Part shown: positions 55,730 through 59,358 of the stretch, one piece after another
How positions within the stretch are numbered: the first letter of the stretch is position 1
Layout of the letters: the number at the start of each line of letters is the position of its first letter
Assembly: GCA_028712885.1 (NCBI GenBank)
Contig: JAQTPK010000009.1
Coordinates: forward strand, 1 to 64,000
DNA length: 64,000 bases
Source: Syntrophales bacterium
GTDB lineage: Bacteria; Desulfobacterota; Syntrophia; Syntrophales; UBA4778
Direction of reading: 5' to 3'
Program-made: the position numbers and the translations under genes
Notes under the pieces: model-generated
Database searches by the model: none
What the model was told of the DNA's origin: nothing
Seen by the model: the letters and a program-made list of their open reading frames with translations, nothing else

Positions 55730-57763
55730 TCAGTCCTCGTCCGGCAGCACGTCCGGGCGAAGACGTCTTAATTCCTCGAGTTTTCCACGATTCAGGCTTG
55801 ATTTCCAGGCGAAGTAGCCCGCTATCTTCGTAATGCCGTCCACGTCCTCGGAGCCGCATTTTGGGCATTTTTCAGTGAATCCCCGGCTGGTGTCAAGACA
55901 GGAGCGGCAGCAGGTAAAATCGGGGGAGAACGTCAATTGAGTGTTCCCGCAATCCCTGAATACTCTCTTCATAAGGGATACCAGGGAGCTCCCGCGCGGC
56001 ATGGCGGACCCCAGCCATACATGGCTGACCGCGCCCCACCCGGCCAAGGGGTGATAGGCGCCTTCATGATGGAGGCGAGTCATCACGTCTGCAGCATGAT
56101 CCGCCGTTATTGAGCCGGAATAATATACGCCTCCGCTGACCAGATCTCCGCTGATATGACGGCCTGCTTCAGGGGAGTGATACCTGAGATCCAGCCTGGC
56201 AAAACGATACGCGGTCGTCTCAGCAGGCGAGCAGGCGAGCGACAGGCGTATGCCGTACCTTCGCCCCAGTTTACCCGCGACGGAACCCAGATGGGAGAGG
56301 ATTTTTTTTCCATAACGGAGGGCTTCCACCGCGGAGCGGGCCTGCCCTCCCGATCTCATTTTAACGAGCTCGTTGAGGCCGACGAAACCGAGCAGGTACC
56401 GGGCATTATCGTAATCGAGATAAGGCGACCCGTCCCGGTCCATGGCGCAGAAGGCCAGGGGCCCTTCCTTTCCATGGGACTGAAGCGTTTTCATGTAGTC
56501 CCTTTTCTGCGCATGGGCCCTGGCTGCGAGCTCCGTCAGCGAACTGAGGAGGGAAAAAAGTCTCGCATCGTCGTTTTTTGAGCGATACCCGATCCTGGGC
56601 AGATTGAGCGTGACCATATGGACGGCCGCGCTCCTTTCATCCCCGCCGAGACCCTCCCCTGCCGGCGGCGTCCGGTCGAGCACAAAGAAGGGGTTTCCTT
56701 TATCTGCCGCCGCATTGCAGGCGTGGCGGAGAAAGTCCTTCGCTCCCGCCTCGCGAAACATCGATGCCGATACGTGAAGGACCGGTTTCGGAAAGAAGAA
56801 AGGCTTATTGCCGGCATCCCCCCGAAGATAAACTTCCATCATGGCCCAGGCGAGGCGGCGGGCGTCCTTCACATACTCTCCGTATTTCCTGCCGGTCGGG
56901 ATCCCGCCCGGCCCTATCGCCGCGCGGGCCGCCGTCTCATCCGGAATATCCCAATGAACGTGCAGGTTGGTGTACATGACCTGGCCCCCTCTCGAGACGG
57001 CCAATTGGGAGAATTCGAATATGAGCATCTGGACAAGCTGCCGCACCTGCTCATCCGTCCAGCCGGTAATATACGGGGCGAAGCAGACGTTCACCGCCTT
57101 CCATTCTATCGGCCCGGCGAAATTTCCCTGCAGGGCGGCGCTGAACCGCACCATATGCGCGAGGAGCACCTCTGCATGCCGTGCCGGCTTCGCCCGGGAA
57201 GACAGGTTGGGCAGATCGATTCCGTGTTCCTTGATATGCTCCAGCGATTGGGCCGAGCAGTAAGGGCGGTCGATATACCCGAGATTGTGGAGGTGGAAAT
57301 CCCCGGAAAGATGGGCTTCGCTCACGTCTTGAGAAAAGACGCTGTTCAGTGCGTATTCCCTTTTTATGCCGAGGGCCAGGGTAAGATTGGTCCCCTCCGG
57401 CCAGTGGGGAACATTGGCGTTCTCGCGGTTTCGATGGGCGATGAGATTGCCGATATCGTAGAGGGGAAAACCGAGCCGGGCATGGGCCCGCCTCGCGTGC
57501 TCGAGCCCTCTTTCGATCAGGCGGGCGTTTACGAGCTCGCGGATCAGAGGGGCCGTGAGGGTGGCGATTCCTGAGGAGAAAATCTGCTTTTCCACTTCCC
57601 GGCTTATGGCTTCCGCCGTATCGCCGTCCACATAGGTCTCCAGAAGCAGGGCGTCAACTATCTTCTGCCGGTTCCATTGGACGACATCCTCATTGGACGT
57701 CCTGACGAAGAGCGTAATATCCGTCGTATCCTTCTTCACGGGTGTACGTTGCTTCGTCCTCAC
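55730..57763 (-). CDS. nrdD: Anaerobic ribonucleoside-triphosphate reductase (GTG start overlapping alaC stop)
   Basis: ATP-cone-like N-terminus; GNFAGPIEWKAVNVCFAPY; C-terminal CCRSC..CPKCG..ITKIAGYFAWKSSLNRGKLEEL. Confidence 0.9.
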   Translation of the reverse strand: MRTKQRTPVKKDTTDITLFVRTSNEDVVQWNRQKIVDALLLETYVDGDTAEAISREVEKQIFSSGIATLTAPLIRELVNARLIERGLEHARRAHARLGFPLYDIGNLIAHRNRENANVPHWPEGTNLTLALGIKREYALNSVFSQDVSEAHLSGDFHLHNLGYIDRPYCSAQSLEHIKEHGIDLPNLSSRAKPARHAEVLLAHMVRFSAALQGNFAGPIEWKAVNVCFAPYITGWTDEQVRQLVQMLIFEFSQLAVSRGGQVMYTNLHVHWDIPDETAARAAIGPGGIPTGRKYGEYVKDARRLAWAMMEVYLRGDAGNKPFFFPKPVLHVSASMFREAGAKDFLRHACNAAADKGNPFFVLDRTPPAGEGLGGDERSAAVHMVTLNLPRIGYRSKNDDARLFSLLSSLTELAARAHAQKRDYMKTLQSHGKEGPLAFCAMDRDGSPYLDYDNARYLLGFVGLNELVKMRSGGQARSAVEALRYGKKILSHLGSVAGKLGRRYGIRLSLACSPAETTAYRFARLDLRYHSPEAGRHISGDLVSGGVYYSGSITADHAADVMTRLHHEGAYHPLAGWGAVSHVWLGSAMPRGSSLVSLMKRVFRDCGNTQLTFSPDFTCCRSCLDTSRGFTEKCPKCGSEDVDGITKIAGYFAWKSSLNRGKLEELRRLRPDVLPDED

Positions 57764-58989
57764 GCGCCGGCCCCGGCGGCCTGTTTCTTTTCCATTCCGG
57801 TAAAAGAGAGCCGCTTGATCTGCCGGATCGCCTGCCGGATCCTGTTTTCATTTTCGACAAGGGCAATGCGCAGATAGCCATCGCCCTCCGGGCCGAAAGC
57901 GATTCCGGGGGAGACCGCCACTTCCGCCTCTTCCATGAGACGAACAGAATAGTCCATTGATCCGAGGGCGCGGAAGGGCTCGGGGATCGGGGCCCAGATG
58001 AACATGGACGCCCTCGGTTTTTCGACCTTCCATCCGATGGAGTTCAGTCCGTCGCAGAGCACGTCCCTTCTGCTCTGGTAAATCGCAGCCTGTTTCAGGA
58101 TTTCCTTGTCACAGTGGCGGAGGGCGATTATCGCCGCAATCTGCACCGCCTGGAAGAGGCCGTAATCGTAATAGCCTTTTATGCGCGAAAGGGCGTCGAC
58201 GATTCTGGGATTCCCGAGGCAGTAGCCTACTCTCCAGCCCGCCATGTTGTACGATTTGGAAAGAGTGCCGAATTCAACGGCCAGGTCCCTGGCCCCTTTG
58301 ACCTGCAGAATGCTCGGGGCCTCATATCCGTCAAAAGTCACCCTGGCGTAAGCGAAATCGTGGATGATGATCAGCCGCCTCCGCCTCGCTACCCTGACCG
58401 CCTCCTCCAGAAATCCCAGATCCACCGTCCGGGCCGTGGGGTTATGCGGGAAATTCAGGAAAAGAACTTTTGGGGCGGGAGAATGGGTGCGGCAGATCTC
58501 ATCGACGCTCTTCAGAAAGGTTTCATCATCCTCGTGAGGCACGCGGACGACCTCCGCGCCGGCAATTACGGCCGAATAAATATGTATCGGAAAGGCGGGG
58601 ACGGGGACAATCGCGGCATCTCCCGGCCCCAGCAGCGCCAGGGACAGATGAGAAACGCCCTCCTTCGAGCCGATCGTGCAAAGGACCTCCGTATCGGGGC
58701 TGAGCGACACTCCATACTGCCGCTCATAATAGAGGGAAATCTCCCGCCTGAGGTTATGAATTCCCGAAGCCACCGAATAGCGGTGATTCCTCGGATCCCG
58801 GACGACCTCGCAGAGCTTGTCAACAACGTTCCGGGGCGTCGGGTCGGAAGGGTTTCCCATGGCCAGGTCGATAATATCTGCCCCGGCCTTCCTCTTTTCC
58901 AGTTTCAATTTGTTTATCCTGCCGAATACATACGGCGGGAGCATGTCCATTCTTCTTGAAAAACTGATAAAGTCATCGTGGTTTTCCAT
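57760..58989 (-). CDS. alaC: AlaC-type glutamate-pyruvate aminotransferase (PLP class I/II)
   Basis: RMDMLPPYVFGRINKLKLEKRKAGADIIDLAMGNPSDPTP; TLSKSYNMAGWRVGYCLGN; closely resembles remembered E. coli AlaC sequence. Confidence 0.88.
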   Translation of the reverse strand: MENHDDFISFSRRMDMLPPYVFGRINKLKLEKRKAGADIIDLAMGNPSDPTPRNVVDKLCEVVRDPRNHRYSVASGIHNLRREISLYYERQYGVSLSPDTEVLCTIGSKEGVSHLSLALLGPGDAAIVPVPAFPIHIYSAVIAGAEVVRVPHEDDETFLKSVDEICRTHSPAPKVLFLNFPHNPTARTVDLGFLEEAVRVARRRRLIIIHDFAYARVTFDGYEAPSILQVKGARDLAVEFGTLSKSYNMAGWRVGYCLGNPRIVDALSRIKGYYDYGLFQAVQIAAIIALRHCDKEILKQAAIYQSRRDVLCDGLNSIGWKVEKPRASMFIWAPIPEPFRALGSMDYSVRLMEEAEVAVSPGIAFGPEGDGYLRIALVENENRIRQAIRQIKRLSFTGMEKKQAAGAGA

Positions 58990-59010
58990 TTTCTGCCTCT
59001 CCTTGCCGGT

Positions 59011-59041
59011 AAAAAAAAGCCCTGAAAAATACATCCAGGGC
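59011..59041 (-). terminator. Second terminator of the alaC leader
   Basis: Minus strand GCCCTG-gatgtattttt-CAGGGC-TTTTTTTT, just upstream of the alaC RBS. Confidence 0.8.
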
Positions 59042-59047
59042 CTCAAT

Positions 59048-59087
59048 AAAAAAGGCCATGGACAATTTGCTTATCCTGCCCATGGCC
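59048..59087 (-). terminator. First terminator of the alaC leader
   Basis: Minus strand GGCCATGG-gcaggataagcaaattgt-CCATGGCC-TTTTTTATT. Confidence 0.88.
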
Positions 59088-59102
59088 TGTGAGATTTTGT
59101 AA

Positions 59103-59180
59103 TCAGAGGGATCCGCCACACGCCATGGGCCGTTTAGCCCTGGCTGCCGCTGCCGCCTGCATCGTGATGACGGAAAACAT
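59103..59180 (-). CDS. Alanine-rich leader peptide MFSVITMQAAAAARAKRPMACGGSL (25 aa)
   Basis: ATG at 59180, TGA ending 59103; AAAGGG upstream; codons GCG GCA GCG GCA GCC AGG GCT; lies between promoter and terminators. Confidence 0.85.
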   Translation of the reverse strand: MFSVITMQAAAAARAKRPMACGGSL

Positions 59181-59207
59181 GTAATCCCTTTCGCTTTGTT
59201 GTTTTAA

Positions 59208-59236
59208 AGCATATTCAGGAATCTTGCAGTTGTCAA
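59208..59236 (-). promoter_or_regulatory. Sigma70-type promoter for alaC leader/alaC-nrdD
   Basis: TTGACA, 17-nt spacer, TATGCT on the minus strand. Confidence 0.8.
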
Positions 59237-59250
59237 ATGATTTTTACCCG

Positions 59251-59358
59251 GGCTAAAGGTAAAGGGCAAAAGGCAAATGGCTTAAAAAACAGCAGACAGA
59301 TTCAGATCTCCTGTCAGGTTTTTCGCCCTTAGCCTTGGGCCCTTAGCCTTTTGCCTGA
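59251..59358. repeat. Heptad tandem arrays in inverted orientation beside the HD gene stop
   Basis: GGCTAAA GGTAAAG GGCAAAA GGCAAAT GGCTTAA (59251-59285) and CGCCCTT AGCCTTG GGCCCTT AGCCTTT TGCCTGA (59324-59358). Confidence 0.92.

Follow-up and report, generated by a model that had tools for sequence, protein, structure and literature searches.

Layout of the locus

The window analysed here is a 64,000-nt stretch of DNA from a Syntrophales bacterium. Read along its minus strand, positions 59240-58990 hold, in this order, a promoter, a leader ORF, a first terminator, 8 bases and a second terminator, after which an aminotransferase gene begins at 58989 (Table 1). When we checked the sequence, all leader elements claimed in a preliminary description of this DNA were present where it had placed them, and the two complementarities it reported, perfect over 9 nt for S2:S3 and 8 of 9 for S4:S5, were found as well. 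Terminator 1 is a 36-nt hairpin (59088-59053, -21.4 kcal/mol) with T6 behind it, and the hairpin of terminator 2 (59044-59016, -15.7 kcal/mol) precedes T8; the terminator scan reports terminator 2 alone, the loop of terminator 1 being over the limit of the scan. The promoter matches the consensus at 10 of 12 positions, and promoter scanning returned one site compared with 0.6 in shuffled sequences. The inferred transcription start lies at about 59201.

Table 1. Features of the leader region and of the genes downstream of it, in window coordinates
Feature	Position	Strand	Details and basis
Promoter	59208..59236	minus	TTGACA 59236-59231, 17-nt spacer, TATGCT 59213-59208
Leader ORF MFSVITMQAAAAARAKRPMACGGSL, 25 codons	59103..59180	minus	ATG 59180, stop TGA 59105-59103
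Control codons GCG GCA GCG GCA GCC, five Ala in a row	59142..59156	minus	
S1 AGGGCT, partner of S2 in free RNA	59136..59141	minus	Window fold and S1:S2 own-partner energy
S2 GGCCCATGGCG, 5' arm of antiterminator 2:3	59121..59131	minus	2:3 covariation
S3 AGGCCATGGGCAG, partner of S2 or S4	59076..59088	minus	
S4 TTGTCCATGGCCT and terminator 1 U-tract	59048..59065	minus	S4 59065-59053, then T6; 3:4 covariation
S5 GAGGCCCTGGA, partner of S6 (terminator 2) or S4 (relay)	59034..59044	minus	4:5 covariation, own-partner tests
S6 TTCAGGGCTTT and terminator 2 U-tract	59011..59026	minus	S6 59026-59016, then T8; terminator scan, 5:6 covariation
alaC-like PLP aminotransferase, 409 aa	57760..58989	minus	PRK08175, PF00155
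nrdD-like anaerobic ribonucleotide reductase	55730..57763	minus	PF13597, 350 bits

Among 66 NCBIfam models, the alanine transaminase model PRK08175 fits the aminotransferase best, with a score of 537 bits that lies below the equivalog cut-off of 647; the protein also matches PF00155. We refer to it as AlaC-like, with alanine as the putative substrate. The nrdD gene overlaps the end of alaC by a few bases and is probably co-transcribed with it in the window. The alaC-nrdD unit proposed in the preliminary description was not confirmed, as nrdD did not adjoin alaC at any of the other alaC loci examined with flanking sequence. The adjacency belongs to this genome alone, and we rejected nrdD as a conserved operon partner of alaC.

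Window positions 59260-59355 carry short intergenic repeats (TTTTGCCCTTTACCTTTAGCC and similar) in inverted arrangement, with copies of about 90% similarity at six other places in the genome. A DNA search for copies of the leader in its own genome returned short intergenic repeats only.

Conservation of the alanine leader

Using a DNA search of 60 relatives, we matched AlaC leaders in three other genera, with the leader peptides MKFVKVIYKAAMAAGARKPMVCGGEL, MKFTDIIRQTAIAAAARAKKPVVCGEL, and MQAEKTRLMAAAAAAAMARRPMAGDAFL. Leader peptides homologous to that of the window are present at L098, L099, and L100. At a strict threshold, the window's order contributes six AlaC-bearing genomes out of 155, each with the leader upstream of the gene. 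Extending the search to the phylum and to two additional classes yielded 185 distinct AlaC upstream regions, 67 of which contain a short ORF with an in-frame run of at least four Ala codons, compared with a mean of 0.25 in shuffled sequences. A control with reverse-complemented upstream regions gave 31 and was set aside as unclean because GCGGCCGC and GC runs are self-complementary. Runs of other single residues are rare in these regions (alanine at 55 loci, followed by leucine at 8). The carriers belong mostly to the Desulfobacterota and include Desulforhabdus (L018), Syntrophobacteraceae (L020, L030), Desulfatitalea (L037, L047), Desulfosarcina (L052), and Desulfogranum (L025).

Among 169 AlaC proteins placed on a tree, leaders were found in 50 of 101 rows of one clade and in none of the 68 rows outside it; truncation at contig ends, or identity with a row already counted, caused a few rows to be scored as leader-less. 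Leader presence requires at most 11 changes of state on this tree, and many AlaC genes of Desulfobacula-like relatives have no leader. This suggests that the alanine leader is an old element that was lost several times, for example in Desulfobacula-like lines. For the AlaC clade that carries them, the Ala control codons offer independent support for a role in alanine metabolism. Six genomes (G440, G401, G312, G336, G421, and G512) encode a second AlaC-like paralogue with about 53% identity to the window protein; for relatives of this AlaC-like kind, the upstream regions retrieved came from other genomes and lack an Ala leader.

The architecture of the leader is conserved along with the codon run. 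Tandem hairpins were present in 68 of 71 leaders, at a median distance of 8 nt from each other, with the first hairpin starting a median of 26 nt past the stop codon. Of 66 distinct leaders, 28 have a promoter with at least 9 of 12 consensus matches ahead of the leader ORF, compared with 8% of shuffles. At least five T in eight positions follow terminator 1 in 47, terminator 2 in 48, and both terminators in 30 of these 66 leaders. At the median, S2 starts 6 nt downstream of the Ala run and ends 13 nt short of the stop codon. At L038, over 200 nt separate the end of the leader, both terminators included, from the downstream alaC, and an insertion seems to lie between the gene and terminator 2.

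Nearly all leaders have runs of four to seven Ala codons, five being the commonest number. Across the leaders, GCG is used 137, GCC 112, GCA 56, and GCT 16 times, and start and stop codons are kept. The varied third base of the Ala codons indicates that the constraint acts on the residue. This speaks against a factor- or ligand-responsive RNA, such as a riboswitch or a T-box, in place of a translated leader. The strong and conserved alternative pairing described below would suit such an RNA, but the kept start and stop codons would not, and an Rfam search of the leader matched no described RNA family. We rejected this reading on the missing Rfam match and the variable third base, and consider it the least probable of the alternatives.

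Another possibility is that the leader encodes a small protein with a function of its own or a peptide that arrests translation as a nascent chain, with the Ala run forming part of it and not serving as a tRNA sensor. Among close relatives of the window, the end of the peptide (RPMACGG) is indeed conserved. However, this end encodes S2, which must match S3, and leaders throughout the phylum have only the Ala run in common, the rest of the peptide being different. We rejected this explanation, which we regard as very improbable.

Covarying segments and the proposed relay

The alignment of leaders from alaC orthologues bears out the Ala-rich ORFs and the covarying pairings 2:3, 3:4, 4:5, and 5:6. 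For 66 leaders, we compared the pairing energy of each segment with its own partner and with partners swapped between leaders. Own partners were better for 2:3 (-16.2 versus -13.7) and for 4:5 (-13.3 versus -10.2), with 0 of 5000 permutations reaching the observed value in either case, and 3:4 and 5:6 likewise beat 5000 permutations. The S1:S2 own-partner energy was also better than swapped (0/5000). In the same 66 leaders, the control pairing 2:5 had no own-partner advantage (2267/5000), and the control pairings 3:6, 2:4, and 2:6 showed small differences only. When the analysis was restricted to six-base cores (43 distinct triples), 4:5 beat 20000 permutations (0/20000) whereas 3:6 did not. 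In L109 and some other leaders, individual pairings are weak.

Column counts were made on an alignment of 44 leaders. For L111, L135, L231, L249, L257, and L260, the automatic procedure had placed terminator 2 in a wrong or doubtful register; these leaders were kept out of the alignment and are included in some of the energy tests. In the 4:5 columns, 90.3% of cells are paired compared with 79.9% after shuffling and 12-47% when the columns are slid by one to three positions, and both sides have changed 45 times compared with 18.6 in shuffles. The corresponding values are 87.9% versus 83.2% for 2:3 and 92.9% versus 84.7% for the columns of the two terminators; all these shuffle tests are inflated by kinship among the leader sequences. 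Because the shuffles keep relatedness, single compensatory changes weigh most. At the 4:5 pair 123:155, C-G has become U-A in seven sequences that fall into two separate groups (L018, L106, L108, L133, and L134; L275 and L279). In these seven sequences, the S3 base G100 is unchanged and forms only G-U with S4, and the terminator 2 pair is broken in three of them. Similarly, S4/S5 read CAAUCC/GGAUUG in L068 and CAACCC/GGGUUG in L249, whereas S3 is GGGUUG in both; the matching S5 bases of L068 lie mostly inside the loop of terminator 2. Of the pairings in the predicted structure, 4:5 is the only one that accounts for the changes at 123:155, in L068, and in L249. These changes also supply precise base changes with which the relay can be tested. 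Thus, sequence comparison establishes the leader ORF, the conserved Ala run, the twin terminators, and the covariation of all four pairings, including a mutually exclusive antiterminator in which 2:3 and 3:4 both covary.

We next consider how these pairings would operate. The free window leader folds into 1:2, 3:4, and 5:6, that is, with both terminators formed. When a ribosome is masked onto one of the five Ala codons, whichever it is, 1:2 and 3:4 give way to 2:3, so that terminator 1 is absent, whereas a ribosome placed at the stop codon restores 3:4 and 5:6. When alanine is plentiful, the ribosome would cross the Ala codons and depart, and S1 would take S2. With S2 held in this way, two intrinsic terminators would form one after the other, 3:4 and then 5:6. 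If Ala-tRNA is scarce, the ribosome would stall on the Ala run and cover S1, and the freed S2 would pair with S3 so that terminator 1 fails. The unpartnered S4 would then pair with S5 once it is made, before S6 exists, and pre-empt terminator 2 as well; with both terminators pre-empted, the polymerase would read alaC. As S2 begins past the Ala run and ends before the stop codon, S2 stays accessible when the ribosome sits on the early Ala codons. From the median distance of 13 nt, a ribosome at the stop codon covers S2 only partly. Masking of S2 by this ribosome, which the preliminary description had made responsible for termination, may contribute, but it is probably not the sole mechanism; judged by the free fold, the 1:2 hairpin is probably the main block.

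The second step of the relay, in which S4 had been proposed to capture S5 and block terminator 2, has the covariation of 4:5 in its favor and equilibrium folding against it. In masked folds at equilibrium, 2:3 with 5:6 (-34.1 kcal/mol) outcompetes 2:3 with 4:5 (-30.5 kcal/mol), and 5:6 still forms. The relay must therefore act kinetically, and it is plausible that 4:5 forms before S6 is made and holds during the passage of the polymerase over the second U-tract. It is usual for the antiterminators of ribosome-mediated attenuators to be weaker than the competing terminators. Ribosome stalling, the order of events, and a 4:5 pairing that lasts long enough for the polymerase to pass terminator 2 are steps that we infer.

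The equilibrium result would also be expected of a single-step alanine attenuator, in which regulation is confined to 2:3 versus 3:4, terminator 2 is an unregulated and leaky second barrier that reduces basal read-through, and the similarity of S4 and S5 derives from a common GC-rich motif. The poor terminator 2 tails of some species fit this explanation, and a basal-lowering role was given to the extra hairpin in the model of the his leader (PMC1183508). By analogy, low leakage is probably the role of the second terminator here too. However, a common motif does not account for 4:5 complementarity that is matched within species (0/5000 and 0/20000 permutations), nor for compensatory changes that neither hairpin needs, such as the matching S4 and S5 of L068 and L249 next to an unchanged S3. 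In addition, a strong unregulated terminator 2 would defeat induction. We therefore consider the single-step explanation unlikely, though less so than the two alternatives discussed above. With a probability of roughly 0.8, the element controls an alanine-forming aminotransferase by ribosome-mediated transcription attenuation, sensing charged tRNA-Ala and acting through a two-terminator relay, a reading already put forward in the preliminary description and now backed by leader alignment and covariation.

Known attenuators and leaders for other amino acids

Alanine is among the commonest amino acids and, to our knowledge, is absent from the list of classical attenuators. In the enterobacterial trp, his, leu, thr, ilv, and phe attenuators, control codons in a leader ORF are combined with mutually exclusive pairing and an intrinsic terminator, ahead of genes for synthesis of the amino acid that is sensed (PMC1183508). 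The leader described here has these same components in front of a gene whose product is predicted to make the sensed amino acid; unlike the classical attenuators, it would sense alanine, carries two terminators in series, and is found in a different phylum. Its sequence contains the cognate codon run, the intrinsic terminators, the exclusive antiterminator, and a 1:2 hairpin that a stalled ribosome would cover. The his leader alternates between A:B, C:D, E:F and B:C, D:E over six segments. The alanine leader resembles it in that its alternating pairings form a chain of more than four segments, as shown here by the covariation of 4:5, but the last hairpin alone terminates in his whereas the middle hairpin 3:4 of the alanine leader also has a U-tract. 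In Salmonella, the extra hairpin of the his leader lies between the pause hairpin and the terminator (PMC1183508). Two tandem terminators and an antiterminator are likewise present in the rimP leader of some Gammaproteobacteria (PMC2965389), for which no amino-acid leader peptide is described. We found no description of twin-terminator leader peptides in the open-access literature. Within that literature, the domino arrangement, of which the preliminary description knew no earlier account, appears new in this form, with the extra hairpin of his as a precedent.

The uORF of whiB7 responds to many kinds of stall. In mycobacteria, uORF attenuation of whiB7 is linked to alanine starvation and to the alanine-synthesis gene aspC (PMC13236596). 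Unlike the alanine leader, it controls a transcription factor that activates aspC, and it is not an attenuator that acts in cis on the enzyme gene through an Ala run. In the open-access literature, our search did not turn up any description of a cis-acting attenuator that senses alanine and controls an alanine gene. The earlier suggestion that no alanine version has been described holds to this extent; whiB7 is a partial precedent, and sensing of alanine by a leader ORF is not wholly new. Should the proposed mechanism be true, the known attenuators would gain a cis-acting member for alanine, along with a design by which a single stalled ribosome inactivates both of two serial terminators.

The relay itself is not tied to alanine. 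A covariance model of the leader scored alaC leaders at 68 bits or more and set them apart from a second tier at 56 bits and below. Essentially all of the 34 second-tier loci retrieved are amino-acid leaders with twin terminators. Across the phylum, these include Trp- and Phe/Tyr-coded leaders (L293-L312, L318-L331; e.g., L295, L297, and L318). Trp runs precede TrpB-like proteins (L297, with the peptide MLKDARISKKNWWWWLQV), and Phe/Tyr-rich peptides precede DAHP synthase (L318, L321, L330) or an enzyme of the aldolase type that belongs to aromatic synthesis (L293, L305), where the enzyme names come from reading the sequences and that of DAHP synthase from its domain. At 30 second-tier loci, 4:5 was again matched within species, though more weakly (7/5000). 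The window's genome itself has a Phe-rich leader, MKVLLHNFAGGFFGFFMVCRHRFRD, before an AMP-forming ligase (L332, C93) and a leader with a doubtful second hairpin, MGNSVCTRLNGWFSYYYFGAQVCPSVGGM, before DAHP synthase (L333, C63). The double-terminator arrangement that had been proposed for alanine therefore exists and is re-used with Trp and Phe/Tyr leaders. Trp and Phe/Tyr runs before Trp and aromatic genes show that codon identity follows the pathway, which further argues against an arrest peptide.

We regard it as fairly probable that attenuators of the Desulfobacterota share a common twin-terminator relay chassis (2:3 then 4:5 versus 3:4 and 5:6) with swapped control codons, namely Ala for alaC, Trp for trpB, and Phe/Tyr for DAHP synthase and related genes. 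Such a chassis would provide two chances to stop, a low basal level, and one ribosome decision for both terminators. Its apparent re-use extends across a phylum in which regulation has received little study. At L319, L320, L324, and L329, twin-terminator leaders with Trp runs precede a predicted exported or outer-membrane protein and not a biosynthetic enzyme. Leu-rich leader peptides with a GGCCATGG..CCATGGCC terminator were found before a 2-oxoacid oxidoreductase gamma-like gene (L013, L014, L016), and this leader is probably a leucine attenuator.
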